Source: Natrinema salinisoli (lineage in GTDB: Archaea; Halobacteriota; Halobacteria; Halobacteriales; Natrialbaceae). From it: DNA of 64,000 nt. Position numbers and translations under genes: made by a program. This document shows, piece after piece, positions 16,473 through 33,088 of this stretch (the first letter of the stretch is position 1; every line of letters begins with the position of its first letter). Where the stretch lies: the NCBI RefSeq assembly GCF_020405205.1, contig NZ_CP084469.1:1860001-1924000 (forward strand), in the 5' to 3' direction. The notes beneath the pieces are model-generated. The model was not told where the DNA came from. It saw nothing but the letters and a program-made list of their open reading frames with translations, and made no database searches.

Positions 16473-16808
16473 ATGGTTTCGCTGCAGGTGATCGCCGTCG
16501 CCGTCGTCGGGTTCGCGATCGTCCTCGGGGGTGCCGTCGCCGTCTATCGGGACGCGACTCGCGTCGGAGTCTCGAGGCCGGCGCTGTGGGCCGGGTTCGT
16601 GATCGTCACTTCCGGAAGCGGGCTCGCCACGTATCTGGGCCCCCCGGACGTGCCGATCCCCGGCTTACTCGTGATCGTGATCGCGGGCCCGGCCCTCTAC
16701 CTCTTCGAACGCGACGACGTGAAACACGGCGACGAACCCGCCGATCCCCACGCGCTCCCTGACGGCCCCGGTGGCGAGTCCTCGAGCGAGGGGCGACCCG
16801 ACGAGTAG
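16473..16808 (+). CDS. Small membrane protein, three hydrophobic segments
   Basis: 111 residues: hydrophobic segments at about 5-24, 38-55 and 62-78, then an acidic, Pro/Gly-rich cytoplasmic tail ending in GRPDE. The pattern of two or three helices plus a short acidic tail is common among uncharacterised haloarchaeal proteins. No domain recognised. It ends 76 nt before taw1. Confidence 0.6.
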   Translation: MVSLQVIAVAVVGFAIVLGGAVAVYRDATRVGVSRPALWAGFVIVTSGSGLATYLGPPDVPIPGLLVIVIAGPALYLFERDDVKHGDEPADPHALPDGPGGESSSEGRPDE

Positions 16809-16884
16809 CCGGTCCGGACACCACACGAGTGACCGGTCGGGACACCGCACACCTTTTGACTGCGCCCGTGCAACGACTGGCAAC

Positions 16885-17913
16885 ATGAGCGACTCCGCGA
16901 ATCCCGGGCGCGACGGAGCGAGCGGCGACGCCGCCGATGACGACGGCGGCGGGCCGGCACAGGTCTCGAGTCCGGACTACCACAGCGAGAACCACACGGC
17001 CGCCCAGACCTGCGGCTGGACGGCCAACGCCATGCGCGGCGAGGGGAAGTGTTACAAGAACATTTTCTACGGGATCGAGTCCCACCGCTGCATCCAGATG
17101 ACGCCGGTCGTCCGCTGTAACGAGCGCTGTGTCTTCTGCTGGCGCGATCACAAGGGCCACTCCTACGAGATGGACGACGTCCAGTGGGACGACCCCGAAG
17201 CGGTCGTCGACGCCTCCATCAAACTCCAGAAGAAGCTCCTCTCGGGCTTCGGCGGCAACGAGGAGGTTCCCCGGGAGGTGTTCGAACAGGCCATGGAACC
17301 CCGCCACGTCGCCATCTCGCTGGACGGCGAGCCGACGCTGTACCCCTACCTTCCCGAACTCATCGAGGCCTTCCACGACCGCGACATCACTACCTTCCTC
17401 GTCTCGAACGGCACCCGCCCGGAGATGCTCCGGGACTGCGACCCGACCCAGCTCTACGTCAGCGTCGACGCCCCCGAGCGCCACACCTTCGACGAGGTCG
17501 TCGGCGCGATGGAGGACGACGCCTGGGAGAACCTCCTCGAGACGATGCACGTCCTCGCCGAGAAAGAGGACACTCGCACCGTGCTTCGCACCACGCTCGT
17601 CAAGGGCGAGAACATGCGGAATCCCGACTGGTACGCCGGGTTCTACCAGCAGGCGGATCCGGACTTCATCGAACTGAAGGCGTACATGCACGTCGGCCAC
17701 TCGCGGGGCCGCCTCGATCGGACCGCGATGCCCGACCACGAGGAGGTCGTTGAGTTCGCCGAGGACGTTCGGGAACACATGCCCGAGTTCGAGGAAGTGA
17801 TGGGCGTGCCGGCCTCCCGCGTAGCCCTCATCTCGAAGACCAGCGACACGTGGGTTCCGAAGCTGCAGAAGGGGAGCGAGTTCTGGGAGCGCGATCCGGT
17901 CACGGGCGACTGA
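16885..17913 (+). CDS. taw1: tRNA 4-demethylwyosine synthase (TYW1-like radical SAM)
   Basis: 342 residues from the ATG at 16885. The radical SAM cluster is C78-x3-C82-x2-C85 ('CNERCVFCW'); three further cysteines, C43, C56 and C69, match those that bind the second 4Fe-4S cluster of archaeal TYW1. 'ISLDGEPTLYPYLPEL' and 'ELKAYMHVGHSRGRL' are family signatures. It makes the tricyclic base of wyosine at G37 of tRNA-Phe from m1G and pyruvate. A 30-residue acidic/Gly-rich N-terminal extension is haloarchaeal in style. Confidence 0.95.
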   Translation: MSDSANPGRDGASGDAADDDGGGPAQVSSPDYHSENHTAAQTCGWTANAMRGEGKCYKNIFYGIESHRCIQMTPVVRCNERCVFCWRDHKGHSYEMDDVQWDDPEAVVDASIKLQKKLLSGFGGNEEVPREVFEQAMEPRHVAISLDGEPTLYPYLPELIEAFHDRDITTFLVSNGTRPEMLRDCDPTQLYVSVDAPERHTFDEVVGAMEDDAWENLLETMHVLAEKEDTRTVLRTTLVKGENMRNPDWYAGFYQQADPDFIELKAYMHVGHSRGRLDRTAMPDHEEVVEFAEDVREHMPEFEEVMGVPASRVALISKTSDTWVPKLQKGSEFWERDPVTGD

Positions 17914-17971
17914 GTACTCGAGCCGTGAGTCGGCGAGAACATTTACGTGCCGAACCGAAGAACCTCTTCAG

Positions 17972-18787
17972 GTGACCCTCCGATCGTTCATCGACGACGT
18001 CGGCTCGCACGACCGGCGGATCGCCGTGGTCAACGACGATACGACGGGGCCCCTCGAGCAGATGCTCGTCGATACCTTCGAGAACCAGCCGATCGACGTC
18101 GAGTCGGGCGTGACGATCCCGTCCGGTTCGGATCTGGATCCCGAAATCGACGCCGCGCTCGAGTCGGAGGGGGATACCGCTCTCCTCTTCGAGGGCGGCA
18201 CACCGGTCGCCGCCTCGCCGATGCTCGAGTTGTACGACTCCATCCTCGCGATCAACTCCGATCTGTTCGTCACCGGCGCACGCGGCGTCGGCGAGATCGA
18301 ACTCCCGGACGTCCTCGCGAACCTCGACGAGACGCGACTGCAACTCTGTGGCTATCCGCTATCGGATAAGGAGAAACTCCTCCTGATACTCGTCTCGCGG
18401 TACATCGAACAACGCGCCTGGACGGCCGGGAGCGGGACGCTCAGATCGGCGTTCCAGCGGCTCTCGCGCATCGGCGACGAGATCGGGACTCGAGAGGTCT
18501 ACGCCGAAATAGCGGAGACAGACGTCGATACGCACGTCTACGGGATCGACGACGGCACGACGGTAGATCTCGACGTCACGATCCACACTGGAACGAGCGA
18601 GGAGTACCGCGACGGCTGGTTCGTCGTCTACCAACCGGACGACGCCGCGACATCCGCCGAGGACCCGATCAGCGACCCCATCGCGCTTGTCTGCCTCGAG
18701 ACCGAACCGCGCATCTGGGACGGCTTCTGGACGTACGATCCCGACCGCGTCGCCGCGATCGGGGACTATATCGACCGAGAGCTGTAG
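17972..18787 (+). CDS. DICT sensory domain protein
   Basis: 271 residues from a GTG start; a TATA-like 'CATTTACG' about 27-30 nt upstream supports it. The N-terminus 'MTLRSFIDDVGSHDRRIAVVNDD' and the central 'YIEQRAWTAGSGTLRSAFQRLSRI' are the style of haloarchaeal DICT-domain proteins; DICT domains occur with GGDEF and two-component proteins and are thought to sense or relay signals. No output domain is attached. It is alone between taw1 and the convergent flippase gene, which ends 5 nt away. Confidence 0.7.
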   Translation: MTLRSFIDDVGSHDRRIAVVNDDTTGPLEQMLVDTFENQPIDVESGVTIPSGSDLDPEIDAALESEGDTALLFEGGTPVAASPMLELYDSILAINSDLFVTGARGVGEIELPDVLANLDETRLQLCGYPLSDKEKLLLILVSRYIEQRAWTAGSGTLRSAFQRLSRIGDEIGTREVYAEIAETDVDTHVYGIDDGTTVDLDVTIHTGTSEEYRDGWFVVYQPDDAATSAEDPISDPIALVCLETEPRIWDGFWTYDPDRVAAIGDYIDREL

Positions 18788-18792
18788 CCCGC

Positions 18793-20238
18793 TCACCACA
18801 GCTCGAGTCGCGAACTGCGGACGACGCCCCTGATCGTGACGCGGAGTTTTCGGCTGATAGCCGCCAGCGTGAGGCCGTACACCGCCGCACCCAGCGCGAC
18901 GATCGCGAGGAGCTGATACCAGTGGTCGATGGTGGCAGCGCGCTCCAGCGGGACGATGACCGCGAACATCACGAGCCCGGCCGCGAGCTGTTCGCCGAGC
19001 GTCCGCGGGAACAGGACGACCGTCGACAGCTCGCGTTTGACAACGACGGCGGAGAGAGCGTAGCGGAGGGTTTCCGCGACGACCGTCGCGACGACGACGC
19101 CGATCGCGCCGTAGGCGAGCGTCAGCGCGACGCCGAGGGCGACGTTGATCGCTAGCGTGAGCGCCGAGATCCGCGTGTTGATGTCCGGCCGGTCGATCCC
19201 GTAGAGCACGCTCGTGAGCACGCCGGCCTGGGTCTTCGCGATCTGGTACGCCGCGAGTCCGACGAGGAGCGTCGCGGCGGCGGCGTACTCCGACCCGAAG
19301 AGCGTCACGACGAGTCGTTCCGGCATCGCGACGGCCCCGAAGAACATCGGGATCGCGATGATGCTCGTAAACGAGAGTGTGTTCGAGACGTCGGTCCCGA
19401 GCGTCTCGCCCTCGCTGTGACGGCGGCTCACGCGAGCCATCAGCCCGCTCGAGGCGGCCATCGTCACGAACGTCGCCGGGACCGTGAGTTTGAGCGCGAC
19501 TTCGTAATGGCCGGCGGCGGCGGGTGCAAGCAGGTAGCCGAGCAGGATGATGTCGAAGCGGTCGTAGGCCTGCCCGAGAAACGAGTTCGGAATGCTGTAT
19601 CTGGCGTACGACCAGAGGTTCGCGACGGTCTCCCGGGTCGGAGCGACCGGCCGCGTTCGAATGAAGTACCAGAGGACCGGAACCGTCAGGAACGTCGCGG
19701 CGGCGAGGCCGTACGCCATTCCCGCCGCGCCGAACCCGAGCACGATCAGGCCCAGCTGGATCGGGAAGGTGAGCACCGATCGAAGCGTGTCGGTCCACAT
19801 CGAGGCCCCGACGCGGCCGCGCGCCTGGACGATCAGATCGAGCGGTTCGAAGAGCGTGACCGCGAACAGCAAGAGGACGAACAGTATCGGCGCTTCGGGG
19901 AGCCCCGTGTAGGAGACGAGCCGGCTCGACGCGACGACAGCCGCGGCGACGGCGAGTGCCATCCACACCAGCGTGAACAGGCCCTGGCTGCCGATCAGCT
20001 CTCCCGACGGGGCGTCGGCTTCCGAGTAGCGTTTTTTGACCGCCGTTCCCCACCCGTTGACCGCCCGGTCCGCGATCTTCACCAGCGAGAAGAGGAGGTA
20101 GTAGCCGCCGAACCCGGTCGGCCCGAGCGCCCGCGCGAAGACGATCGTTCCGAGGAACCCGATCGCGGCCATCGTGAACTTCGCGGCCGTCGCCTTGACC
20201 GTCTCGCCGCCGAGACTGACCGACGTCGCATCACTCAT
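18793..20238 (-). CDS. Oligosaccharide flippase (MATE/Wzx-like, AglR type)
   Basis: 481 residues with about 12-14 hydrophobic helices. The start 'GGETVKATAAKFTMAAIGFLGTIVFARALG' and 'GYYLLFSLVKIADRAVNGWGTAVKKRYSE' are typical of the polysaccharide biosynthesis (PST) branch of the MOP superfamily. It is expected to flip lipid-linked oligosaccharide across the membrane. It is the last gene of the glycan cluster and starts 99 nt after the sulfatase-like gene. Confidence 0.87.
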   Translation of the reverse strand: MSDATSVSLGGETVKATAAKFTMAAIGFLGTIVFARALGPTGFGGYYLLFSLVKIADRAVNGWGTAVKKRYSEADAPSGELIGSQGLFTLVWMALAVAAAVVASSRLVSYTGLPEAPILFVLLLFAVTLFEPLDLIVQARGRVGASMWTDTLRSVLTFPIQLGLIVLGFGAAGMAYGLAAATFLTVPVLWYFIRTRPVAPTRETVANLWSYARYSIPNSFLGQAYDRFDIILLGYLLAPAAAGHYEVALKLTVPATFVTMAASSGLMARVSRRHSEGETLGTDVSNTLSFTSIIAIPMFFGAVAMPERLVVTLFGSEYAAAATLLVGLAAYQIAKTQAGVLTSVLYGIDRPDINTRISALTLAINVALGVALTLAYGAIGVVVATVVAETLRYALSAVVVKRELSTVVLFPRTLGEQLAAGLVMFAVIVPLERAATIDHWYQLLAIVALGAAVYGLTLAAISRKLRVTIRGVVRSSRLELW

Positions 20239-20337
20239 CGCTGCCGGGGATCCGTTCGAACTCGTTCAGCCCGCCGCACCGACGATGGTCGGCCAGACCC
20301 GTCGCCGGCCGGTCGATCGCTCGGGTCGATACCACCG

Positions 20338-21747
20338 TCACAGATACCCCAGCTCCTCGAGCTGAGATTCGAGCCCGGAGAGATCCGCCTCTGAGAGCCC
20401 CTCGCGCCGCTCGAGGTCGGCGACCTGTCGATCCAGCTCCGACTCGAGGGCCGCCGGATCGCAGTCGCCGATCGTCCGGTTCTCGGTCAGATCTTCGAAG
20501 TAGTAACAGTCGGCCGTCGCGAGCCCGTGCCGTTCGGTATCGACCGGGGCGACCTCGTAGCCGTCCTCCTCGAGCGAGAGCCGCCGCCGTCTGGAGATCC
20601 CGTGAAACTCCGCGAGCGCGTTCGATCGCGGCCCCAGCGCGGGCGGGTCCCTCGAGAGTAGCGGTCGGAACGATTCGCCGCGACGACGGTCCGTCTCGAT
20701 ACCGGCGAGGTCGAGCAGCGTCGCGTAGACGTCGAGGTGGTTCACGAGGGCGTCCCGCGTCGCTCGCTCCCCGTTCGCATCGGGCGTCCGATGGTCGGCG
20801 CGCGGTCCGGGTGCGGAGACGACGAGCGGGACCCTCATGACGGGCGGGTAGAGCCCGCTGCCGTGTTCCCACGCGCCGTACTCGCCGAGGGCTTCGCCGT
20901 GATCGGCCAGCGTGACGACGTAGTCGAACTCGGCGGCGAGTTCCCCGTAGATGTCGCGGTAGATGTCCGACAGATACCGCACGGCGTCGTCGTACGCGGT
21001 CGCGATCCGCGCCGGATCGTACGGCGGCTCCTCGAGCGTGGCTTTCACGCCGTCGAAATGCGGGGGGTCCTCGTCTGGATAGGTGCGGTACTCGTCCGGC
21101 GGGTCGTACGGCCGGTGGGCCTCCATGAGGTTCGCAAAGAGGAACTCGCGCTCGCGGTTCCACGACCGGTCGCGGACGTACTCGAGCAGTTCCGCCGCGC
21201 CGTCGTCGCGGTGGCGTCCCTTGAGCCCCATATCTCGGAGCTTCATCAGGGCCCCCTGTTTCAGCGATTGGGTCGTGTCGCAGTCGCCGTCGACACACCG
21301 CCAGACGGCCCGGAGGTACCGCTCCGGCCCCGCGGACTGCTGGTCGGCGATGAAGGCGTCCCAGTCGAAGACGTTCTCGCCGAGGCCGCGGAGCCGCCAG
21401 CCGCCGTCGAACTCGTCGAACCCGTGGTGCCAGCCCAGCCGCTCCGAGATGTTAACGTTACAGCTGAACGCGCGCGTCCGATAGCCGCGGTCGCGGAGGA
21501 GTTCGGGGAGGCGAGTCGTGTGTCGGTCGAAGTCCTGCGATTTGATCGTCACGCCGGCTTCGCTCGCGTAGCGGCCGGTGAACAAGGAAGCGTGAGCCGG
21601 TGCCGTCCAGTGGCTCGTGCTCCACGCGTTCGTGAACTGCACGCCCGGTAGCCAGTCGAAGTGCTCGTCAAACGAATCCGCTCGCAGCGTATCGAGCACG
21701 ACGAGGGCGATGGATGGGTCGTCTCCCATGATCGCGGTTCCGCTCAT
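20338..21747 (-). CDS. Sulfatase-like hydrolase/transferase 1
   Basis: 469 residues from the ATG at 21747. Alkaline-phosphatase-superfamily features: metal-ligand D19 in 'LVVLDTLRADSF', the nucleophile region 'HWTAPAHASLFTG' with T48 where formylglycine Cys/Ser stands in true sulfatases, and 'LADHGEALGEYG' with the second metal site. The protein ends in 'LEELGYL'. Without Cys or Ser in C/S-x-P-x-R it may be a phosphotransferase or phosphodiesterase rather than a sulfatase. A longer in-frame start would run into the pyruvyl transferase gene. Confidence 0.82.
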   Translation of the reverse strand: MSGTAIMGDDPSIALVVLDTLRADSFDEHFDWLPGVQFTNAWSTSHWTAPAHASLFTGRYASEAGVTIKSQDFDRHTTRLPELLRDRGYRTRAFSCNVNISERLGWHHGFDEFDGGWRLRGLGENVFDWDAFIADQQSAGPERYLRAVWRCVDGDCDTTQSLKQGALMKLRDMGLKGRHRDDGAAELLEYVRDRSWNREREFLFANLMEAHRPYDPPDEYRTYPDEDPPHFDGVKATLEEPPYDPARIATAYDDAVRYLSDIYRDIYGELAAEFDYVVTLADHGEALGEYGAWEHGSGLYPPVMRVPLVVSAPGPRADHRTPDANGERATRDALVNHLDVYATLLDLAGIETDRRRGESFRPLLSRDPPALGPRSNALAEFHGISRRRRLSLEEDGYEVAPVDTERHGLATADCYYFEDLTENRTIGDCDPAALESELDRQVADLERREGLSEADLSGLESQLEELGYL

Positions 21748-21886
21748 CCTACCAGACCCCTCACAAAGAACCTGCCCCCGGCAGTAGAACGGATAGCGGT
21801 ACCGTCGGTCGGTTCCGGCCGCGAGGGTACCGTTTCGACTCGGAGCGTCACCGAGGCCGATATCGACCGCCGGTTCCCGATCATCC

Positions 21887-22897
21887 TTACAGCACCGTTG
21901 CGATCCCTTCTTCGAGCGCCTCGACCTGTGCGTCCTTCTCGCGCTCGAGGGCGTCCATATCGAACCGGACCGGCTCGCTCGTGACGTCGCCGTCGATCGG
22001 AACACGGTCGAACAGGTTCGCTCGCGGCGTCTCGAAGTAGAACTGCGCCCTGTTGCCGTAGGTCAGGGCCGGGAGACAGGCGTGGATCCGGTCTGACCGC
22101 ACCACCTCCGCGTTGGCGTAGAGGAAGAGGTAATCGGTCACGAGATCGGAGACGAAGGCGTTTTCGGCCTCGAACAGCGGCGTCTCGAGGCCCACCAGTT
22201 CCCGCGCCCGTTCGCCGACCGGGAAGTGGAACGGTTCGTCGAAGGGGGCGTGATCGGGTCGGATGACCGTCCGCGAGCTCCCGATGTCGGGCTCCTCTCC
22301 TTTGTCGAACGTGTGGACGTCGAACGGCCGATTCGCCTCGGGCGGCTGGTGGCGGTCGCCCAGAAACAGCGAGCAGTCGATGCCGTCGTACAGGTATTCG
22401 ACGAGGTCGCCATACTCCTCGTAGGCGGTTCGATCTCGCGTGAGCAGGACGTCGATGTCGAGCGCGTCGAACACGGCCTCGACGTACCGGCGCTCGTCCT
22501 CGTCGTACTTCTCGCCGCCCCCGCCGACGACGACGATCGGAACGTCCCGCTCCCTGAGTTGACGGAGCGTGTCGAAGTACTTCCGGAACGTCGGTCTGGA
22601 GAGGACACAGCCCGGGAGGACGGCCAGATCGGCGTCGATCAGCTCGCTTATATTCACCGTGTTCCGTCGAAGCGGGTGCGTCGGCGATTCGTAGGTGGAT
22701 CGATCGTAGCCCGTCATCCGCGCGAGCTTCCGGGTGCCGCCCCACAGCGCCGCGGTGTCCGACGCGTGGTTGGGATAGCCGCCCGTTTCGACGATCTCCG
22801 CGTCGGGGAAGGCTTTCTCGAGCATCGCCCTCGCCCCGTAGTCGATGAAGCCGTTCCCGATGTTCGTCGTCCACGTCCGCAGAAGCAGGATTCGCAT
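21887..22897 (-). CDS. Polysaccharide pyruvyl transferase family protein
   Basis: 336 residues from the ATG at 22897 (MRILLLRTWTTNIGN). Features of the CsaB/WcaK family: N-terminal 'NIGNGFIDYGARAMLEKAFP', 'DADLAVLPGCVL', 'VVVGGGGEKY' and C-terminal 'SDRIHACLPALTYGN', the conserved (S/T)xRxH motif. It would add a pyruvate ketal from PEP to a sugar, giving the glycan a negative charge. It has its own promoter and heads the second unit of the glycan cluster. Confidence 0.83.
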   Translation of the reverse strand: MRILLLRTWTTNIGNGFIDYGARAMLEKAFPDAEIVETGGYPNHASDTAALWGGTRKLARMTGYDRSTYESPTHPLRRNTVNISELIDADLAVLPGCVLSRPTFRKYFDTLRQLRERDVPIVVVGGGGEKYDEDERRYVEAVFDALDIDVLLTRDRTAYEEYGDLVEYLYDGIDCSLFLGDRHQPPEANRPFDVHTFDKGEEPDIGSSRTVIRPDHAPFDEPFHFPVGERARELVGLETPLFEAENAFVSDLVTDYLFLYANAEVVRSDRIHACLPALTYGNRAQFYFETPRANLFDRVPIDGDVTSEPVRFDMDALEREKDAQVEALEEGIATVL

Positions 22898-22922
22898 TGC
22901 GGACCCCTCCACCGGAACCGGT

Positions 22923-22931
22923 GATAATTAT
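22923..22931 (-). promoter_or_regulatory. TATA box of the pyruvyl transferase gene
   Basis: Minus-strand ATAATTATC, about 26-34 nt before the ATG at 22897, predicts a leaderless transcript. It splits the glycan cluster into two transcription units. Confidence 0.5.
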
Positions 22932-23045
22932 GGAGGGGCTACACCCCGCTATCGTCCCGTTTCGACGCCTGAGACGAGTTCGAACGGGACGCTAAGGCAT
23001 CGATATCGACCCGAGAAACCTTCGAATCGAGGGGCGATCCCTCTG

Positions 23046-23963
23046 TCAGTCGAGATAGCCGAGTTCGCGCAACCGTTCGGTCGGCATGTCGATATCCTCG
23101 TCGGGGCCGGTCGCGCCCGTGTCCGAGTCCACCGCGCGTTCTTCCACCCATTGTCGCACGTCGTAGACCGAGTCCGGACAGGTGTCGGCCGTCGAACTCG
23201 CGTACGCGCGCCAGGAGTGGCTCGCCGGCTTCTCGCCCGCGTCGGGCGGGTAGAACGCGGCGCGCATGCCGTGATCGCTGACGACGAGGAGATCGTCGTC
23301 CTCGCCGAGGGCGGCGACGATCTCCTCGACGAACTCGCCGACGCGGGCGTAGGCGCGACCCAGTGCGGCCTCGTCGTCGGCGTAGGCGTGGCCCGCCGCG
23401 TCCAGCGTGTGGACGTGAACGCCGGCGATCGAGACCGGGTGGGCGAGCATCTCGCGAGCCCAGCCGAACTGCTGGGCGCAGAGCCCGAACAGTTCGCGCT
23501 CGAACTCGTGGCGGGGCATCCCCTCCGCCACGGCGTTCATCAGGTCCCAGGCGCGCTGGAGCGGCCGGCCGTCGTGGACGCCCGGCCAGTTGTGGACGAC
23601 CGCGTCGTCGGCGTCGAACATCGACTCGCGGTCCGTCTCACCGATGCGCTCGCGCGTGCCGGTCCGCGATCGAACGAGTTTCCCGAGCGTCCCGCGGGTG
23701 GATTCGTCGAGGCGACCGGTGACAACCGACGCGAGGTCGAGCGCGGGGTTCGCCCACTCGCTGGTGCCGCCGCCGGTGATCCCGTGTTCGGCCGGCTCGA
23801 GCCCGGTCGCGACGGTCGCCCAGACTTCCGGCGTGTACGGGACGGCCTGCGTGTTCGCGAACGTCTCGATCTCGCCGCCCGACTCGAGACGGACGGCGTC
23901 GAGGTCGAAGTGATCGACCAACCCGGCATCGAGCGCGTCGAGCGCGAGGACGACGACCGTCAT
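23046..23963 (-). CDS. Type I phosphodiesterase / nucleotide pyrophosphatase-like enzyme
   Basis: 305 residues. Alkaline-phosphatase-superfamily features: D9 in 'VLALDALDAG', nucleophile T44 in 'PYTPEVWATVATG' (the NPP-like T-x-x-x-W-A pattern), 'HTLDAAGHAY' and 'LLVVSDHGM' metal ligands, and a C-terminal 'LRELGYLD'. Likely a phosphodiesterase or phosphotransferase acting on glycan or lipid head groups. The start overlaps the previous gene by 4 nt (ATGA). It is the last gene of the six-gene coupled unit. Confidence 0.83.
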   Translation of the reverse strand: MTVVVLALDALDAGLVDHFDLDAVRLESGGEIETFANTQAVPYTPEVWATVATGLEPAEHGITGGGTSEWANPALDLASVVTGRLDESTRGTLGKLVRSRTGTRERIGETDRESMFDADDAVVHNWPGVHDGRPLQRAWDLMNAVAEGMPRHEFERELFGLCAQQFGWAREMLAHPVSIAGVHVHTLDAAGHAYADDEAALGRAYARVGEFVEEIVAALGEDDDLLVVSDHGMRAAFYPPDAGEKPASHSWRAYASSTADTCPDSVYDVRQWVEERAVDSDTGATGPDEDIDMPTERLRELGYLD

Positions 23964-25081
23964 GCGTACCCGAGATCCTCCAGATCCTCCTGCAGGGCGT
24001 CTTCCTTGACGACGTAGACGGGATCGAACCGCTCGAGTTCCCGCTCGAGGGAGGGGTCGTCCACTGGCTCGCCGTCCTCGAGTCGATACGTGCCGTCGTC
24101 CGTCGCGATGCGATCGGCGGTCATCGCGGCCTTTCGGTCCCCGTAGGCCGCGAAGGCGATTTCCCGATCGAGCGTGCCGACCCCGTGTTCAGTTCCCGTC
24201 AGGATCGTCGGGACGTCGACCAGCGAGACGACCTCGCCGAGGTCGGGGGCGTTCCGCGTCCCGAACGGGACGTTCAGCAGTTCGGCGCGCATCTCGCCGG
24301 GGTGGCCCCACAGTCCGTCCTCGCCGAGTAGTTCCCCGTGATCGCCACAGAAGACGACGCGCGTCCCGTCGGGAATCGCGGCCCACAGGCGCTCGAGGCG
24401 GTCGTCGAGGTCGACGATCTCCTGTCGGTAGAGCTCGCGGACGGCGGCCTCGTCCTCGTCGGACCCGCGACCCGAGAGCACGCGCCGAGTGAGTCGCTGT
24501 GCCGTCGCCCGGTCGACGTCCGCACCGTCCGGATCGTAGGGATGGTGCGGTTCCATGAAATGCAGCCACCCGAACCACTCGTCGCGGTCGTCGATCTCGG
24601 TCAGGAACTGGTCGACGACCTCGTCCGCGGGTCGGAACGATTTGTTCGTCTCCTCGACGTAGCTCCGAAGCTGCTGGTAGCGATTGTAGCCCCAGCTGGC
24701 GATTTTGTAGGGAAGCGAGCCGCGCTCGAGCAGGATTGCACCCTTGTCCTTCAGCGACTCGCCGCCGCCTTTCGGCGACGTGAACGAGTCGAAGCCGGCC
24801 GCGTAGCCGTACTCCGCGGACAGCAGGTGGTTGGTCGTGATCCCGACGCAGCGGGCGTCGAACTCGTGGGCGACGCTCGCCGCCGACTCGAGGCCGTTGC
24901 CGGCCGGATACTCTCCGCCGATGATCGCCGGGAAGCTGCCGGGCGTCGCCGTGCTCGTGGCGAAGGCGGCGTCGTGGGTGTCGTCCAGGAAGTCTCGAGT
25001 GTGTGGCATGTACTGGACGTGATCGGTTCTGAGCGAGTCGACCGTGACTAACAGGGTCGTGTCCGTCGTGTGTTCGGTCAT
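23960..25081 (-). CDS. Sulfatase-like hydrolase/transferase 2
   Basis: 373 residues. 'LLVTVDSLRTDH' with D15, a nucleophile region 'TPGSFPAIIGGEYP' (S49 as candidate), 'WLHFMEPHHPY', and 'VVFCGDHGELLGEDGLWGH' metal site identify the sulfatase branch of the alkaline-phosphatase superfamily. The protein ends 'LEDLGYA'. Both ends overlap neighbours by 4 nt. Soluble and cytoplasmic by sequence (no signal peptide seen), so it would act on precursors or on lipid-linked glycans on the inner face (inference). Confidence 0.83.
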   Translation of the reverse strand: MTEHTTDTTLLVTVDSLRTDHVQYMPHTRDFLDDTHDAAFATSTATPGSFPAIIGGEYPAGNGLESAASVAHEFDARCVGITTNHLLSAEYGYAAGFDSFTSPKGGGESLKDKGAILLERGSLPYKIASWGYNRYQQLRSYVEETNKSFRPADEVVDQFLTEIDDRDEWFGWLHFMEPHHPYDPDGADVDRATAQRLTRRVLSGRGSDEDEAAVRELYRQEIVDLDDRLERLWAAIPDGTRVVFCGDHGELLGEDGLWGHPGEMRAELLNVPFGTRNAPDLGEVVSLVDVPTILTGTEHGVGTLDREIAFAAYGDRKAAMTADRIATDDGTYRLEDGEPVDDPSLERELERFDPVYVVKEDALQEDLEDLGYA

Positions 25082-26523
25082 AGGTATCCCAGATCCTCCA
25101 GTCGGGCGCGGCTCGCCGCGTCGACGTCCTCGGCGAACGCCCGTTCGTCGTGGTCGCCGTCAGTGACCCAATCGCCGAAGGCGGACTCGAAGAGCCCCTC
25201 CGGGACGGTCTCCTCGGGGCGTTCGATCTGCTTCGACGGCGGACCGGAGACGTCGTACACCGCCTCGGTGCCGAGCTGGTCGCGGTAGTACTTCCGGTCG
25301 CCCCGATAGACGACGCGCTGTCCCCGGTTCCAGTAGGATTCGTCGCCGCCCTCCGGGATGCCGGAGCCCGAGCCGACGATTTCGGCGCGCGCATCCTCCC
25401 GCTCGAAGGCGAACGGGTCGAACGGGTCCTCGCCCGCGAGCGACCGGATCACGCCCCCGAGATCGGCGTGGGAACTGAGCCCGTCCACATCGACGGGACC
25501 TTCGGTCCCCGACTCGAGGACGCCGCCACCGGTCGCGATGACGTCGAACGGGACGTGTAACAGCCCCTCCGAGAGACTGCTCATGTGGTTCATGAGGTAG
25601 CCGTCCGATTCGTAGCCGAGGTTCTCGCCGTGATCCGCCGTTACGATCAGGATCGACTCGCGGTCGTCACCGGTCGCCAGTGCGGTCACGAGGTCTGCGA
25701 TGACCCGGTCGAGGTAGTCGACCGTCGCCGCGTACAGCCCGCGAACGCGCTCGACGTCCGATTCGAACTCGCCGAGGCCGTCCGCGGCGTTCACGTCCGA
25801 ATCACGAAACGAACTCGAGTGGAAGTCGGCGGAGACGCCGTGAATCGAGTCGTCTAATCCACGAAACGGCGTGTGCGGACCGTGTGCGTCCATGACGTTG
25901 GCGAAGGCGAGCACCGGCCCGTCGGGTTCGGTGACCTCGCGCTCGAGCGTTCGAGCGATCGCACGGCCGCCGAAATCGGTCGGCTTCTCGATCGGGAGCT
26001 TCCGGCTCACGTCGTCCAGTTTGAGGAGGACGCCGTTGCACAGCGACCGAAGGGGATGGTCGTGTGCGAGGGCCTGACGGACGAAATCGGCGTAGGCTTC
26101 CAGGCCGGTGGTCGAGCGGTCTGAGATGTGCTGCTGGACGTCCATCCCCGCGGGAAGCCGGCGACTCGGCGAGATGGGAACCGTGCGATCGAAGAAGCGG
26201 TCGAACCCGAAGACGGGGCTGGCGTAGATGTTCGACGTAACGCAGACCGACTCGTACCCCGCCCTCGAGACGGGCGCGATCCAGGTGTCGTCGACGTCGA
26301 TCGGATCGAACTGGCGCTGGTGCGCGTGGACGCCCGTTTCCGACGGGACCGATCCCGTCAGCATCCCGGCGTGGCTCGGGACGCTCCAGCCGGCTAGCGC
26401 CCGCATTCCGTCGAATCGGACGGCCGCCAGCTCTCGGAGACGGGGCGCATACCGGTCGTAGACGTCTTTCCTGACGGTATCCAGACAGAGGACGACGACG
26501 TTCGGTCGGTCTCCATCGGTCAT
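25078..26523 (-). CDS. Sulfatase-like hydrolase/transferase 3
   Basis: 481 residues from the ATG at 26523, which overlaps the upstream glycosyltransferase stop by 4 nt; a much longer in-frame extension is rejected for that reason. 'VVVLCLDTVRKD' (D15), 'GWSVPSHAGMLTGSVPSETG' (S47 in S-x-P-S-H), 'NVMDAHGPHTPF' and 'LIVTADHGENLGYE' are sulfatase-family motifs. C-terminus 'LEDLGYL'. A true type I sulfatase would have Arg after S-x-P-S; here it is His, so phosphotransferase chemistry is equally possible. Confidence 0.83.
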   Translation of the reverse strand: MTDGDRPNVVVLCLDTVRKDVYDRYAPRLRELAAVRFDGMRALAGWSVPSHAGMLTGSVPSETGVHAHQRQFDPIDVDDTWIAPVSRAGYESVCVTSNIYASPVFGFDRFFDRTVPISPSRRLPAGMDVQQHISDRSTTGLEAYADFVRQALAHDHPLRSLCNGVLLKLDDVSRKLPIEKPTDFGGRAIARTLEREVTEPDGPVLAFANVMDAHGPHTPFRGLDDSIHGVSADFHSSSFRDSDVNAADGLGEFESDVERVRGLYAATVDYLDRVIADLVTALATGDDRESILIVTADHGENLGYESDGYLMNHMSSLSEGLLHVPFDVIATGGGVLESGTEGPVDVDGLSSHADLGGVIRSLAGEDPFDPFAFEREDARAEIVGSGSGIPEGGDESYWNRGQRVVYRGDRKYYRDQLGTEAVYDVSGPPSKQIERPEETVPEGLFESAFGDWVTDGDHDERAFAEDVDAASRARLEDLGYL

Positions 26524-27611
26524 GTGAATTCGTCGAGTGCGGCGCTGAAGCGTTCTCGCTGGTTCGATTCGGTCAGGTCGGTGACGAGGCTCCGCTGATC
26601 GCTCCCGAGGGATCGTCGCTCCGCCGGCGACAGGTCCGAGAGAGTTACAAGTCCGTCGAACAGCCCCGCCTCGGTCGGCGGGACGACCTGCCGAGCCGGG
26701 AGGAGCTCCCGGACGCCGGTTGCTTCGGTGACGATCGTCGGCGTTCCCGACAGAATCCCCTCGAGCGCGGCGACGGGAAACGCGTCGCCCCGGGACGACT
26801 GGACGTAGACGCTCGCGCGGTCGAACCAGTCGGCGAACGCGTCCAGATCGACGAACCCGGGCGTGACGACGTGGGGCATGGCCGCGTACGGCTGCTCGTC
26901 GTGGCCGTCCCCGAGGACGACTAATCGGACGTCGGCCTCGACAATCCCGGCGAATCGCTCGACTGCCGACGCGAGCCGCTCGTAGCCGTTCGCGGGTTTG
27001 GCCTCGCCGGCCGAGAGGATCGTAAACGGGTCCGATGGCGATCCGGGGGAGAGCGACGCGAGCCGCTCGTACTTCTCGTCGGCGATCGGCGGCCGGACGA
27101 CCGCGACCGGAACGTCGCCGATGTACGGTCGCGCCCAGCGGGAGGCGTCGCGGCCGACCGCGATCACGCCGTCGAGTAACCGGCTCGAGAGCGGCTCGAG
27201 CGCGCGCCAGAGGTATCGCGTCGGCCGCTCGGAGAGGGTGTAAAACGTCTCGTCCGCGGCGAGATAGACGAGGGTCGTTCCCGGCCGACGCAGTTTGTAC
27301 GCGAGCCCGGTCTGGAGCGGCGCGCTCCCCTCCGCGATGACGGTTTCGTACGCCGGCAGCGTCCCGGCAGTTCGGAGTCGATCGACGGTCCGCTCGGTGT
27401 TGCCGCCCGGTTCGGGCGGTCGTTCCCCGGTCTCGAAGTGACGTCGATCGGCGCCCACGGCGTCGGCGAAGACTCGATGTGCGGGGTGTGCGTCGCTGTT
27501 TTGATAGAGCAGACACCGGTCGCTCGTCGTCGGTCCTCGCGGCTGCGACGGTTCGGTCTCGGTCCGGCTGTCAGCGTCCGCCGGATCGTGCGTAGTCGTT
27601 CCCGCTGTCAT
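26520..27611 (-). CDS. Glycosyltransferase, GT4 type
   Basis: 363 residues. The C-terminal GT-B half has 'FTILSAGEAKPANGYERL', 'VVLGDGHDEQPY', and the donor-binding stretch 'SSRGDAFPVAALEGILSGTP' with the E-x7-E-like pattern of GT4 enzymes. The N-terminal half is weakly conserved, with a polar 30-residue start. It presumably adds a sugar to the lipid-linked glycan. It overlaps by 4 nt with genes on both sides. Confidence 0.82.
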   Translation of the reverse strand: MTAGTTTHDPADADSRTETEPSQPRGPTTSDRCLLYQNSDAHPAHRVFADAVGADRRHFETGERPPEPGGNTERTVDRLRTAGTLPAYETVIAEGSAPLQTGLAYKLRRPGTTLVYLAADETFYTLSERPTRYLWRALEPLSSRLLDGVIAVGRDASRWARPYIGDVPVAVVRPPIADEKYERLASLSPGSPSDPFTILSAGEAKPANGYERLASAVERFAGIVEADVRLVVLGDGHDEQPYAAMPHVVTPGFVDLDAFADWFDRASVYVQSSRGDAFPVAALEGILSGTPTIVTEATGVRELLPARQVVPPTEAGLFDGLVTLSDLSPAERRSLGSDQRSLVTDLTESNQRERFSAALDEFT

Positions 27612-28864
27612 TGATCACTCGCCTCCTCGAGCCCGTGGCCGTCGTCGGCGTCGTCACCCAGCCGTGAGACCACCTCGGCACGCTGTCGTCCCTCGAATCG
27701 GGTTCCGTCGCTCGGGCACGCCGATCGCCGATCTCGTTCCGATTCCGGGACGTCGCCGTCGCCGACTGCTGTCCGCTCGACAATCTCGCGGAGCCCGTCG
27801 GCGAAGCGGTCGTACTCGTAGCGCCTCGCTTCGGCCCGGATCTCTTTCGGATCGAAGGCTGCGGGATCGAATTGCCGAACCGCCTCGCGAAGGGACTCGA
27901 TGGTCGGCTCGAAGAGCAGTCCGGTCCGTCCGCTCTGCACCTGGTACCGCGTAAACCCCTCGTTGACACCGAGGAGAGGTTTGCCAGCCATCATGGTCTC
28001 GGCCCCGACGAGGCCGAAGTCCTCCTGTTTGGGCGCGTAGACGACTGCAGTGGCCCGCGCGACGAGCGACTCGATGTCCGAGACGTACCCCCGCACCTCG
28101 ATGTTGTCGTAGTTCGCGGCAAAGGCCTCGAGCTGCTCACGCTGTTGTCCGTCACCGGCGATCACGAGCCGTTCGTCGAGTCCGGCGAACGCTTTCGCGA
28201 TCAGGTCGATGCGCTTCTCGGGAGCGAGTCGGGACCAGGTGAGGAAGTAGCCGTCGTCGCCGTCGTTTCGCCAGTCGCCAGTCACCGGCGGATAGACGAC
28301 CGCAGCGTCGCGCCCGTAGAATCGCCGGATCCGATCGCGAACCAGTTCGCTGTTCGCGACGAAGCAGTCGACGTAGTCGTTGGCCTCCTTGTCCAGCGCC
28401 CGCCACGCTTTCGCGTACGCCTTGAGACCCGTTTCGACGAACGGGAGATCGAACGACGAGAGTCGATCCCGATAGAGGTCGTACAGCCACCGCGGCGGGC
28501 TGTGGGGGTAGTGGACGATCCGCTGACCGACCTCGGGGACGTAGTACTTCGACAGCGGCGCGCTCTCGAGGACCACGTCGTACGCCGCGAGGTCCTCGTG
28601 GGCGTCGGTCATGTCGAGTGCCACGTTCAGGGTCTCGAGAGGGTTCATGCCCTCGTTTTTCCACTCGAGGAAGGGCCGCCACGGGAGCGACGTGTACTTC
28701 GACTGCTGGAACGGGATCACCTCGACGTCGTCGGGGATCGATGTTCCCTCGGCGACGTAGGCCGTGTAGATCGGTGCGTCGAGCACGCGCGCGGCCTCGA
28801 TAGCGAACTCCTCGCCGCCGCCGATTCCGGGGAACCGATCGTGCAGGATCGCCACGTCGGTCAC
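27608..28864 (-). CDS. Glycosyltransferase, GT4 type
   Basis: 418 residues from a GTG at 28864, chosen because it overlaps the upstream stop as GTGA and begins 'TDVAILHDRFPGIGGGEEF', the acceptor-site start of GT4 enzymes. 'YFLTWSRLAPEKRIDLIAKA', 'LVIAGDGQQREQL' and 'EDFGLVGAETMMAGKPLLG' form the donor-binding half. The last 45 residues are a polar tail rich in Arg/Asp without family likeness. Similar enzymes transfer mannose or other hexoses in surface-glycan pathways. Confidence 0.86.
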   Translation of the reverse strand: MTDVAILHDRFPGIGGGEEFAIEAARVLDAPIYTAYVAEGTSIPDDVEVIPFQQSKYTSLPWRPFLEWKNEGMNPLETLNVALDMTDAHEDLAAYDVVLESAPLSKYYVPEVGQRIVHYPHSPPRWLYDLYRDRLSSFDLPFVETGLKAYAKAWRALDKEANDYVDCFVANSELVRDRIRRFYGRDAAVVYPPVTGDWRNDGDDGYFLTWSRLAPEKRIDLIAKAFAGLDERLVIAGDGQQREQLEAFAANYDNIEVRGYVSDIESLVARATAVVYAPKQEDFGLVGAETMMAGKPLLGVNEGFTRYQVQSGRTGLLFEPTIESLREAVRQFDPAAFDPKEIRAEARRYEYDRFADGLREIVERTAVGDGDVPESERDRRSACPSDGTRFEGRQRAEVVSRLGDDADDGHGLEEASDQ

Positions 28865-30024
28865 TGTAACACCTCCCGGAGTTCCCGATCGGGCGACCAC
28901 GTGCCGTCGTGGGTGTCGTCGTCCTCGGCGGCTCGAGCGCGGAGCAGCGAGACACTTGCACGGAACAGCGATATCTGGGTATCGAACAGCGAGTACAACG
29001 GCTGGACGGGTCCGAGCGCATCACGGGAGCCGAGGGCAGTGAAGGCGAGGATGCCGGCTGGCGTCGCCAGTCCGAGGGGGCCGAGTAGGGCCAGCGAGCC
29101 GACCGTCGCCACGGCGATTCCCGTCGCGACGAGCCACGGCGAAACGACCATGAACCACCAGTTGAACGGTAAGACGACGCGGCCGTAGGCCCCGTGACGG
29201 CCGAGCGCGTCGCGCTGTCGCCACAGCAGTCGCAGGAGCCCCATCGCCCGCCGATCCTTCTGCCGGCGGCGCTTGTCGAACGCGGAGTGGGCCGCCTCCT
29301 TGTAGTGGATCTCGGGATCGAAGACGACTCGACCCCCGTTGCGTCGAATCTTCAGCGCGAGTTCGGTGTCGTCGGCGATCGAGTCCTCGTCGATCGGGAC
29401 GATGGCGTCGCGCTCGAACGCCGAGAACGGCCCGTGGAAGATCAGCGTCGAGTCGATGTGTGACTCGAGGATCTGAATCATCGTCTGGATGTCCCGATAC
29501 CCTCGCTCGACCTCGCTGTCACCGAGAACCTCGGCGTTGCGGCCGGTGACCGCCGCCACGTCGGGATCGGCGAGGTTCGCGGCCGCTCGCCGGACCGCGT
29601 CCGACGCGAGCCGCGAGTCGCAGTCGGTTTTGACGACGACCTCGTTCGACGCGACGGCGTAAGCCTCGTTCAGCGCCGGCGCGAGCCCCTCACGGTCGTC
29701 CGTCCGGATGAGCGTCAGGTCCGGTTCCGGTCGGCCGGCGAAGAAGGTCTCGACCAGGTCCGCCGTTCCGTCGTCGCTCGAGTCGACGACGACGATCTCG
29801 ACCCGGTCCATCGGATACTCGAGTTCGACCAGCTCCTCGAGCTTCGACTCGACGATCGCCGCCTCGTTATACGTCGGCAGGACGATACTCACCGACGGCT
29901 CTCGGGGCCACGTGTGGGCGGGCGTTCCCGAAGGGCGGCTGACGTAGTAGACGCCGAGGTAGATCAAATACGGAAGGCCGGTCAGTGCAACCAGTCCGAA
30001 CAGAGCCTCGAGGAGGCGCTTCAT
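28861..30024 (-). CDS. Membrane glycosyltransferase, GT2 type
   Basis: 387 residues from the ATG at 30024. One N-terminal membrane helix (about residues 4-28), a GT-A domain with 'SIVLPTYNEAAIVESKLEEL', D-x-D-like 'KTDCDSRL', 'FSAFERDAIVPIDEDSIADDTELALKIRR' (acceptor E/D and Q/R-like regions), and two or three C-terminal helices. This is the layout of processive or dolichyl-linked GT2 enzymes. It is the first gene of the coupled unit GT2-GT4-GT4-sulfatase-sulfatase-phosphodiesterase. Confidence 0.87.
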   Translation of the reverse strand: MKRLLEALFGLVALTGLPYLIYLGVYYVSRPSGTPAHTWPREPSVSIVLPTYNEAAIVESKLEELVELEYPMDRVEIVVVDSSDDGTADLVETFFAGRPEPDLTLIRTDDREGLAPALNEAYAVASNEVVVKTDCDSRLASDAVRRAAANLADPDVAAVTGRNAEVLGDSEVERGYRDIQTMIQILESHIDSTLIFHGPFSAFERDAIVPIDEDSIADDTELALKIRRNGGRVVFDPEIHYKEAAHSAFDKRRRQKDRRAMGLLRLLWRQRDALGRHGAYGRVVLPFNWWFMVVSPWLVATGIAVATVGSLALLGPLGLATPAGILAFTALGSRDALGPVQPLYSLFDTQISLFRASVSLLRARAAEDDDTHDGTWSPDRELREVLQ

Positions 30025-30581: not shown

Positions 30582-31289
30582 ATGTCTGTAATAGCCGAGT
30601 CCGCCGTCGGGCACGACGAACTCGCCGTGCTCAAACTCCTCGCACTCGAGGGCGGGCTCGAGGGCGACGTCAAAATCTCCTGTTCTCACCTCGCGGACCG
30701 CCTCGACGCGTCGAACCAGACCGCTTCGCGCCGGCTCCAGCGCCTCGAGGGTGCCGATTTACTCGAGCGCGACACGGTCAGCGACGGCCAATGGGTCGCG
30801 ATCACCGAAACGGGCGAGCGGACCCTTCACGCCGAGTACGAGGACTACCGTCGCATCTTCGAGACGGACTCCCAGATCGAACTCGAGGGGACCATCACCA
30901 GCGGCATGGGCGAGGGTCGCCACTACATCTCGCTGTCGGGATACAAACGCCAGTTCGAGGAGCGACTCGGCTACGAGCCCTTCCCCGGCACGCTCAACGT
31001 CGATCTCCGCGAGGACAGCGTCCGCCGGCGCAGCGCCATGGCCTCGCTCGAGCCGGTCCCCATCGACGGCTGGGAGTCCGACGAGCGGACCTACGGCCCC
31101 GCGGTTTGTTACCCCGCGACAATCGAGACGACCGATGGAGACGTCTACGAGGACGCCTACACCATCGCCCCCGAACGCACCCACCACGACGACGACCAGC
31201 TCGAGGTCATCGCCCCCGACAAGCTCCGCGAGGAACTCGCCCTCGAGGACGGCGATCACGTCACCGTCTCGGTGGGTGATCGCGAATGA
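30582..31289 (+). CDS. ribK: CTP-dependent riboflavin kinase with N-terminal winged helix
   Basis: 235 residues. Residues 1-90 form a winged helix-turn-helix ('[24 protein letters not shown]'); residues 100-235 are the DUF120 kinase domain ('[19 protein letters not shown]', '[12 protein letters not shown]', '[17 protein letters not shown]'). Archaeal RibK makes FMN from riboflavin with CTP. The fused DNA-binding domain (RbkR type) is known to regulate riboflavin genes in archaea, so the protein may control its own operon. It overlaps ribB by 4 nt (ATGA). Confidence 0.94.
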
Positions 31290-32008
31290 CGGGCCACCAC
31301 GCCGGGCCGCAGTCAAACGCGGACGGCACGACGACGGGATCGAACTCGAACGCCACAGCCGCCGCGAATTCGTTCGAGCGCGCCCTCGAGTCGCTTCGCG
31401 CGGGCGAACCGATCCTCGTCCACGACGCGGCCGACCGCGAGGGCGAGACTGACCTGATCTACCACGCCGACGCCGTGACGCCCGAGGCCGTCGCCCGCCT
31501 GCGCAACGACGCCGGCGGACTGGTCTGCGTCGCGCTCGGCCACGAGATCGCGGAGGCGTTCGACCTCCCCTTCTACTCGGACGCGATCGATCACCCCGCG
31601 ACGGACGACCACGAACTGGGCTACGACGAGCGGTCGTCGTTCTCGCTGACGGTCAACCACCGAGACACCTACACCGGGATCACCGACGACGACCGCTCGA
31701 GGACGGTTCGGGCGCTCGGCGCTGCCGCTGGGACGCCCGAAGAAACCGACTTCGCCGCGGAGTTCCGCGTTCCCGGCCACGTCCACCTGCTGAAAGGCGC
31801 ACCCGACCTGCTCGCCCAGCGTGAAGGCCACACCGAACTCGGCCTCGCCCTCGCCAACGCGGCCGACCTCTCGCCGGCCGTCGTCGTCTGCGAGATGCTC
31901 GACGACGAAACCGGCGCGGCGCTCTCCCCGACGGACGCTCGTGCCTACGCCGACCGCCACGGGTTCGCCTATCTCGAGGGGAGCGAGGTCCTCGAGCGCT
32001 GTCGATAA
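31286..32008 (+). CDS. ribB: 3,4-dihydroxy-2-butanone-4-phosphate synthase
   Basis: 240 residues. Conserved '[20 protein letters not shown]' near residues 38-57 (catalytic acidic loop), '[18 protein letters not shown]', '[10 protein letters not shown]' and '[25 protein letters not shown]' identify RibB. It turns ribulose 5-phosphate into the four-carbon unit for riboflavin. Translationally coupled to ribK. The first 25 residues are a polar extension. Confidence 0.95.
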
Positions 32009-32152
32009 TTCTCTTCTTTTCTCGACGTTCCCGTAAGACAACGAGCAACCGCTAAACGCCGAGAAATCGGCGGTGGCAGCGGCATCGTCGATGGGACCGC
32101 GCTCGGGTCGAACCGCGAACACTTAGTACGGTGGCTTGCAACAATCACGATC

Positions 32153-33088
32153 ATGGGATTCGACGAGATGGACGTCGACACGATCTGGATGGACGGCGAG
32201 TTCGTCGACTGGGACGACGCGGAAATCCACGTTCTCACGCACGGCCTCCACTACGGGTCGGGCGTCTTCGAGGGCGCGCGCTGTTACGATACCGAAAACG
32301 GGCCGGCGCTCTTCCGCTGGGAAGAACACCTCGATCGGCTCTATCAGTCCGCAAAGCCCTACGAGATGGACATCGACTTCACGAAGGCGGAGCTCACCGA
32401 GGCGACGAAAGAGCTCATCAAGCGCCAGGAACTTCCCTCCTGTTACGTCCGACCGATCGCCTACTACGGCTACAACTCGCTCGGCGTCAGCCCGAAGGAC
32501 TGTCCCACGCGCACCGCCATCGCGGTCTGGCCGTGGGGCGCCTACCTCGGCGAGGACGCCCTCGAGAACGGGATCGACGTGATGATCTCCTCGTGGCGGA
32601 AACACGCCTCGAGCCAGATTCCGACGAACGCCAAGACGACCGGCCTCTACGTCAACAGCATGCTCGCGGGTGAGGAAGCCCGCCGGAACGGCTACGCGGA
32701 AGCGATCGTCCTCAACAAGGAGGGCAACGTCGCCGAAGGCCCCGGCGAGAACATCTTCCTCGTGCGCGACGACGAGATATTCACGCCCGGGCTCTCGGAG
32801 TCGATCCTCGACGGCATCACCCGCGATTCCGTCATTCAGATCGCGGAGGAACTGGGCTACACCGTCCACGACGACGTCTCCATCTCGCGGGGCGAACTCA
32901 ACACCGCCGACGAGCTGTTCTTCACCGGCTCTGCGGCCGAAGTCACCCCGATCCGAAAAGTCGACAACGTCGTCATCGGCGACGGCTCCCGCGGCCCCGT
33001 CACCGAAGAGATCCAGCAGCAGTTCTTCGACATCGTCGAACAGGCCCCCGCGGAGTACGACGAGTGGTTCGAATACGTCGACGTCTGA
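32153..33088 (+). CDS. ilvE: Branched-chain amino acid aminotransferase
   Basis: 311 residues, normal length. PLP-binding K161 in 'IPTNAKTTGLYVNSMLA'; 'VLTHGLHYGSGVFEGARCYDT', 'EGPGENIF'-type sequence ('AEGPGENIFLVRDDE') and 'LFFTGSAAEVTPIRKVD' are class IV transaminase signatures. It exchanges amino groups between Leu/Ile/Val and 2-oxoglutarate. A TATA-like 'ACTTAGTA' lies about 25 nt upstream of the ATG. Confidence 0.95.
   Translation: MGFDEMDVDTIWMDGEFVDWDDAEIHVLTHGLHYGSGVFEGARCYDTENGPALFRWEEHLDRLYQSAKPYEMDIDFTKAELTEATKELIKRQELPSCYVRPIAYYGYNSLGVSPKDCPTRTAIAVWPWGAYLGEDALENGIDVMISSWRKHASSQIPTNAKTTGLYVNSMLAGEEARRNGYAEAIVLNKEGNVAEGPGENIFLVRDDEIFTPGLSESILDGITRDSVIQIAEELGYTVHDDVSISRGELNTADELFFTGSAAEVTPIRKVDNVVIGDGSRGPVTEEIQQQFFDIVEQAPAEYDEWFEYVDV

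Follow-up and report, generated by a model that had tools for sequence, protein, structure and literature searches.

Known clusters with sulfatase-like proteins

The sulfation of surface sugars in archaea is only beginning to be understood, and the enzymes responsible have turned out to resemble sulfatases. The aglB cluster of Halobacterium salinarum encodes three enzymes of the alkaline phosphatase (AP) fold, two of which, Agl30 (VNG1056C) and Agl31 (VNG1057C), were shown in 2025 by deletion and expression in Haloferax to be glycan sulfotransferases of the AP superfamily, one of them cytosolic (PMC11980604). A 'sulfatase' is also among the genes given for a Halorubrum cluster (PMC6137143). 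Both cases speak against the first-pass annotation of the present locus, which took AP-fold enzymes to be foreign to described agl clusters, and the Agl30/Agl31 finding removes much of the novelty of its idea that such enzymes are transferases. AepG of Haloarcula hispanica, encoded in an aglB cluster (HAH_1202-1214), synthesises DolP-glucuronic acid for an exopolysaccharide that is acidic and sulfated, N-glycans being unaffected; no sulfatase-like or pyruvyl transferase gene is named there (PMC9943897). A review of the known polysaccharide pyruvyl transferases mentions archaea once.

The locus described here resembles the Agl30/Agl31 cluster in having several AP-superfamily genes, with a soluble AP-fold product, among glycosyltransferase genes and a flippase gene. 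It differs in encoding a pyruvyl transferase and a phosphodiesterase (PDE), neither of which is reported in the papers on that cluster. With HAH_1202-1214 it shares linkage to aglB and a membrane GT2; the product there is acidic and sulfated, but is an exopolysaccharide. What is newly found is that the cluster is an exchangeable cassette with allele classes.

Gene content of the locus

The window, a stretch of 64,000 nucleotides from Natrinema salinisoli, contains nine genes at 18793-30024, all on the minus strand, and Pfam searches and gene positions bore out the families, order and placement first assigned to them. The gene gt2 (28861..30024; PF00535/PF13641) encodes a membrane GT2 glycosyltransferase with three TM-like segments, the first N-terminal and the other two C-terminal (hydropathy windows at 4, 290 and 310). 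It is followed by two GT4 glycosyltransferase genes, gt4a at the conserved cassette edge (27608..28867; PF00534) and gt4b in the interior (26520..27611; PF13692), and by genes for the AP-fold sulfatase-like proteins sulfA (25078..26523) and sulfB (23960..25081), both PF00884, and for a PDE of the type I phosphodiesterase/nucleotide pyrophosphatase family (23046..23963; PF01663). The remaining genes encode a polysaccharide pyruvyl transferase family protein, pyr (21887..22897; PF04230), a third AP-fold sulfatase-like protein, sulfC, in the interior (20338..21747; PF00884), and a MOP-type flippase, flip (18793..20238; PF13440/PF01943), with about nine TM-like windows. Consecutive genes overlap by 4-7 bp from gt2 through PDE, while gaps of 148, 139 and 99 bp precede pyr, sulfC and flip, respectively. 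Three of the ten PF00884 matches in the 4.7-Mb genome fall within 6 kb here. An Rfam search of the window gave no match. No polymerase of the many-TM, Wzy-like kind is apparent among the nine gene products, of which the flippase alone has many TM segments; this favours an oligosaccharide product.

Both flanks lie on the plus strand and were delimited by synteny and identity profile. On the left (16771..18787) are a radical-SAM-like gene, named from sequence and conserved in the genus, and a variable gene with a DICT domain (Pfam); on the right (30582..33088) are rfk, ribB and ilvE, conserved in the genus and labelled from sequence without a Pfam test.

Exchange of the cassette among relatives

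Close orthologues of gt2 are present in 23 of 29 congeners, and the gene set, either complete or altered in its interior, lies between the same flanking genes at 21 congener loci and at one from a neighbouring genus. Because the gt2 orthologues and this flanked placement recur across congeners, the gene set is not a chance assembly. Three divergent allele classes (A, B and C) were distinguished for sulfB, PDE and flip. At the edge, gt4a retains 80-86% mean identity across all three, whereas gt4b is 84% identical within class A, 39% in class C and without a match in class B, and sulfC is 86% identical in class A and 45% in class B. Between classes A and C, five of the seven interior genes are divergent homologues (gt4b 39, sulfA 41, sulfB 72, PDE 76 and flip 71%); between A and B the corresponding values are 45 (sulfC), 73 (sulfB), 75 (PDE) and 73% (flip). 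The pyruvyl transferase together with sulfC marks class A, and a methyltransferase marks another class. In trees of the flanking genes, class A as a clade was rejected (p-AU 2e-7). The cluster is therefore an exchangeable cassette, in which gt2 and gt4a match the flanks and the interior has been swapped.

The core genes on either side are shared, and half or more of the genes in the island are diverged homologues of one another, as the definition of a homeocassette requires; that term was coined within one species and is applied here across a genus. The homeocassettes of Halorubrum ezzemoulense and the variable glycosylation clusters of Haloferax are likewise mutually exclusive, divergent islands of similar function with the same conserved borders. 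In contrast to those cases, the exchange seen here is between species of one genus and concerns a glycan cluster with AP-fold enzymes; the papers on those earlier cases name no sulfatase. The middle of the cassette appears to be swapped much as serotype genes are in bacteria. Its architecture comprises a core pair, sulfB and PDE, both found in every allele class, and swappable modifiers, namely sulfA, sulfC and the pyruvyl transferase or methyltransferase, so that many natural variants of sulfatase-like proteins are available at one exchangeable locus and serotype-like exchange of archaeal surface-sugar cassettes becomes testable.

Position relative to aglB and proposed function

The oligosaccharyltransferase gene, aglB, reaches into the window with its C-terminal end at 1..467 (plus strand; open frame 3-467). 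The gene starts upstream, its TIGR04154 match (882 bits) lying at 1857636-1860296 of a contig on which the window begins at 1860001. The cassette lies at a distance of 18.5 kb from aglB and lacks an AglJ of its own, unlike the aglB-anchored cluster of H. salinarum. In four other genomes (G049, G002, G206 and G193; loci L050, L053, L083 and L089), a set comprising gt2, sulfB, flip and, in most cases, gt4a directly adjoins aglB. Two of these, G206 and G193, are from the genus Halobacterium; the G206 locus also carries homologues of sulfA (40%) and gt4b (51%), and that of G193 has no gt4a match. An AglJ-like gene, named from sequence, lies beside the set in G049, G206 and G193. As the combination of GT2, GT4, sulfatase-like protein and flippase is found beside aglB in other haloarchaea, an agl-type cluster is most likely.

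On balance, we lean towards a cassette of agl type for an anionic oligosaccharide on dolichol, decorated with sulfate and pyruvate and passed on by AglB. The first-pass proposal of a decorated, anionic surface glycan is supported. In the model that we infer as regards lipid carrier, order of steps, transferred groups and AglB as acceptor, the three glycosyltransferases would lengthen a short glycan at the cytoplasmic face of the membrane, with dolichol phosphate as its probable carrier. Anionic groups (sulfate, by precedent) would most likely be added to the chain by the soluble proteins sulfA, sulfB and sulfC, and a pyruvate ketal by pyr. The flippase would turn the lipid-linked chain outward, and AglB would most likely then pass it to the S-layer and other surface proteins.

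Proximity to aglB alone does not prove N-glycosylation, as the case of AepG shows. We regard as rather unlikely, though tentatively worth retaining, that the cassette serves a product with no relation to AglB, either an exopolysaccharide of acidic character or a different dolichol-linked glycan, which the AP-fold enzymes would sulfate. The AepG precedent (PMC9943897), the distance from aglB, the missing AglJ and a separate, fuller agl cluster (L059) on the other, left side of aglB in the same genome are consistent with such a product, but the lack of a polymerase-like gene among the nine, the similar sets adjoining aglB in four genomes and their AglJ-like neighbour in three argue against it.

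AP-fold proteins sulfA, sulfB and sulfC

As first annotated, none of the three proteins has the canonical C/S-x-P-x-R signature. In its place are S-V-P-S-H in sulfA, which aligns with C54-x-P-x-R58 of choline sulfatase, T-A-P-A-H in sulfC and T-P-G-S-F-P (T-x-x-S-F-P) in sulfB. A D, H, DxH, DH, H set is invariant in sulfA orthologues, as are D15, T46, H174, H179, H180, D247, H248 and H260 in 26 sulfB sequences. A gene for the formylglycine-generating enzyme (FGE; PF03781) was absent from all eight genomes searched, and the same profile matched in four controls. Since both motif and FGE gene are missing, sulfA, sulfB and sulfC are not formylglycine (S1-type) sulfatases.

Membership of the AP fold is indicated by PF00884 and PF01663 matches above cut-off and by Z scores of 19-27 against AP-fold structures for the AF2 models of sulfA (pLDDT 61.5, pTM 0.70; Z 24.7-27.2) and sulfB (pLDDT 63.9, pTM 0.68; Z about 19-21). 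No TM segment or signal was detected by hydropathy in sulfA, sulfB, sulfC, PDE or pyr, and the three AP-fold proteins are predicted to be cytoplasmic. By analogy with Agl30/Agl31, they are more likely to be transferases, and sulfA is a candidate cytoplasmic glycan sulfotransferase. It is not obvious how Ser or Thr, standing where formylglycine would be, could catalyse the transfer of sulfate, and this counts against the agl-type reading with sulfate.

Phosphoethanolamine and glycerol-phosphate transferases (EptA- or LtaS-like) act outside the membrane with phospholipid donors. A phosphate-decorated glycan, made by EptA- or LtaS-like transfer of phospho-groups such as glycerol phosphate, seems improbable here. 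The T-x-x-S-F-P of sulfB, which resembles the nucleophile region of phosphoethanolamine transferases, speaks for such transfer. Structure comparison gave Z scores of 25-26 for the catalytic domains of EptA, EptC and MCR-1 on sulfA, but sulfatases score equally high, and the predicted structures of sulfA and sulfB fail to separate hydrolases from transferases. Moreover, sulfA, sulfB and sulfC lack the external catalytic domain and TM anchor of EptA and LtaS, and the nearest experimental haloarchaeal precedent is sulfate (PMC11980604), so the earlier transferase proposal gains support for sulfate, and nothing points specifically towards phospho-groups. Least probable of all is a hydrolytic role for the AP-fold proteins, in trimming or recycling nucleotides or glycans that carry sulfate or phosphate; PF00884 and PF01663 consist mostly of hydrolases and PDE has a complete NPP-type site, but the missing C/S-x-P-x-R motif and FGE gene, the operon-like grouping with genes for glycosyltransferases and a flippase, and two biosynthetic AP-superfamily proteins in a comparable cluster (PMC11980604) point the other way.

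In H. salinarum DSM 3754, three AP-fold genes lie in one glycosyltransferase cluster, one product being 36% identical to sulfA. Published NRC-1 primers for Agl30/Agl31, mapped on the Halobacterium loci, gave no match with fewer than three mismatches. A C-terminal LxxLGY tail is common to the cassette AP-fold proteins and Agl30/Agl31 (the latter read from the cloning primers); it was dropped as a specific link, as other AP-fold proteins of the genome also carry it.

Sulfate donor, PDE and pyruvyl transferase

In eight genomes, H. salinarum included, no canonical gene for sulfate activation was recognised: ATP-sulfurylase (PF01747) gave no match, CysD scored far below cut-off, and APS kinase matches were weak and partial and were read as P-loop cross-matches. 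The source of sulfate under these circumstances becomes testable with the cassette. It is conceivable, though doubtful, that sulfB and PDE are two halves of a cytoplasmic sulfation or phosphorylation route for lipid-linked glycans that bypasses ATP-sulfurylase and APS kinase, and that the Ser/Thr AP-fold enzymes form a new class of glycan sulfotransferases.

In 14 PDE sequences, D9, T44, D188-x3-H192, D230-H231 and H249 are invariant, which by sequence alone is a complete two-metal-type set (D, T, DxxxH, DH, H). The closest solved relative is ENPP4, a weak match. With its full nucleotide-pyrophosphatase-type site PDE may act as a hydrolase, probably on a by-product such as a nucleotide or another phosphodiester, or may be an editing enzyme.

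Assignment of pyr to the pyruvyl transferase family, as first annotated, is supported by a marginal PF04230 match (26.6 bits, cut-off 25.3) and by R270-I-H272, which by eye resembles the PEP contacts R337-L338-H339 of Pvg1p. The protein shares PF04230 with CsaB, Pvg1p and WcfO; a sequence search yielded no solved relative. The gene is present in 13 of the 101 genomes of the family sample. In relatives, PDE and pyr are separated by a long gap, in which a search for a lost gene turned up no convincing reading frame; in seven relatives a tRNA-Met gene lies inside it.

Organisation of the cassette

The nine-gene cluster claimed by the first-pass annotation was confirmed, both in its order and in its Pfam families. 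The minus strand carries, between 30024 and 18793 and in this order, gt2, gt4a and gt4b (glycosyltransferases), sulfA and sulfB (sulfatase-like proteins of the alkaline phosphatase (AP) fold), PDE (type I phosphodiesterase/nucleotide pyrophosphatase (NPP) family), pyr (pyruvyl transferase), sulfC (AP-fold) and flip (flippase). The six genes from gt2 to PDE overlap by 4-7 bp and short gaps precede each of pyr, sulfC and flip. Pfam backs the assignment of all nine genes, that of pyr just barely. Based on hydropathy, gt2 and flip encode membrane proteins, and gt4a, gt4b, sulfA, sulfB, sulfC, PDE and pyr soluble ones. PDE retains the complete NPP-type residue set.

AP-fold proteins and probable sulfate transfer

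The position of the sulfatase motif C/S-x-P-x-R is occupied by S-V-P-S-H in sulfA, T-A-P-A-H in sulfC and T-P-G-S-F-P in sulfB; other AP-fold positions are mostly invariant, and FGE (PF03781) was absent from all eight genomes searched. The AlphaFold models of sulfB (pLDDT 63.9, pTM 0.68) and sulfA (pLDDT 61.5, pTM 0.70), both of middling confidence, matched AP-fold structures with Z scores of about 19-21 and 25-27, respectively. The fold leaves the chemistry of sulfA undecided, since structures of sulfatases, phosphonate hydrolases and phosphoethanolamine transferases match it equally well.

In the aglB cluster of Halobacterium salinarum, the AP-superfamily proteins VNG1057C (cytosolic) and VNG1056C (membrane-bound) are sulfotransferases for the N-linked tetrasaccharide, based on deletion and on expression in Haloferax volcanii, while the role of a third, VNG1063H, is not known (PMC11980604). 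Because of this precedent, sulfate transfer would be the likeliest function of sulfA, sulfB and sulfC. That AP-fold genes are new to agl clusters, as had been proposed, does not stand, as they were already described in H. salinarum (PMC11980604); the accompanying reading of an anionic glycan is supported. Contig C17 of H. salinarum DSM 3754 carries one glycosyltransferase cluster with three AP-fold genes.

Sulfate-activation profiles were searched in eight haloarchaeal genomes (G000, that of the window; G179, H. salinarum DSM 3754; G206, of the genus Halobacterium; G122, of a neighbouring genus; G049, G027, G006 and G028). None of them yielded a recognisable canonical ATP-sulfurylase, APS kinase or CysD: PF01747 had zero matches, PF01583 only weak ones, mostly of ~50 positions, and CysD scored ~35 bits, the cut-off being 397, with a divergent CysD relative found in all eight. 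Laboratory H. salinarum has documented sulfated glycans, and these profiles suggest a donor pathway that has diverged or is non-classical.

Almost every haloarchaeal AP-fold protein examined ends in LxxLGY (window 18793-26523; loci L087, L111, L112, L114, L116), as do VNG1056C and VNG1057C, deduced from published cloning primers.

Location relative to aglB and likely product

The oligosaccharyltransferase gene aglB has its 3' end at window position 467, and other genes occupy the 18.5 kb that separate it from the cluster. Although apart from aglB here, the cluster is most likely of the agl kind, because a gt2, (gt4a), sulfB, flip set adjoins aglB directly in four other genomes (G049, G002 and the Halobacterium-genus G206 and G193); that of G206 additionally has sulfA (40%) and gt4b (51%). 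The cassette most likely assembles a short, lipid-linked anionic glycan bearing sulfate and pyruvate. The main rival product is an exopolysaccharide, because AepG of Haloarcula hispanica is encoded by an aglB-linked gene serving one (PMC9943897).

Another agl-type cluster lies on the far side of aglB (L059, G000:C1:1840001-1860000). It holds genes resembling AglJ, AglM and AglF, so named on the basis of sequence, alongside three short AP-like genes that carry an LD[AT]CR motif and that Pfam barely recognises. In the region of loci L055, L086 and L116, a second, weaker STT3-like gene (G000:C1:1676713-1678767) lies ~13 kb from a further glycan cluster (G000:C1:1658517-1664140), which contains a pair of sulfatase-like genes together with a flippase relative.

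Allele classes and cassette exchange

Twenty-two loci from the genus, including the window, and one from a neighbouring genus were assigned to three classes, named before the trees were built. Class A (n=13) has the order gt2-gt4a-gt4b-sulfA-sulfB-PDE-pyr-sulfC-flip. In class B (n=7), gt2-gt4a are followed by a GT2, a relative of sulfC at 45% identity, an AP-like gene assigned to no Pfam family, a further glycosyltransferase, sulfB, PDE and flip; a PDE paralogue lies on the opposite strand. In class C (n=3) they are followed by a GT2, relatives of gt4b and sulfA (~40%), a methyltransferase (Pfam-tested in locus L046), sulfB, PDE and flip. Identity of gt2 and gt4a is 80-89% across all classes; that of sulfB, PDE and flip is ~90% inside class A, compared with 71-76% between classes. 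The sulfB, PDE and flip tree recovers each class as a clade with full support. By contrast, the tree of the flanking genes rejects class A as a clade (p-AU 2e-7) and places the window nearest locus L031, then class B loci. The simplest reading is that the interior was replaced via recombination in the flanks, in which the cassette resembles the Haloferax glycosylation clusters and Halorubrum homeocassettes, where replacement of the same kind is described (PMC5867893, PMC11078007).

The window has just 148 bp and no tRNA between PDE and pyr (22898-23045). In seven class A loci this gap is ~0.6-1.1 kb and holds an opposite-strand tRNA-Met gene (L032:7706-7781, L033:12139-12215, L037:7910-7984, L038:11461-11535, L040:11889-11964, L041:5744-5818 and L088:11577-11651). 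PDE is apparently frame-shifted or truncated, possibly by sequencing error, in two class A congeners (L032:8517-9433, L038:10607-11116). The second PDE of class B loci (L042:7518-8471 and equivalents), ~38% identical and located next to the first one in opposite orientation, keeps its catalytic residues in all three checked.
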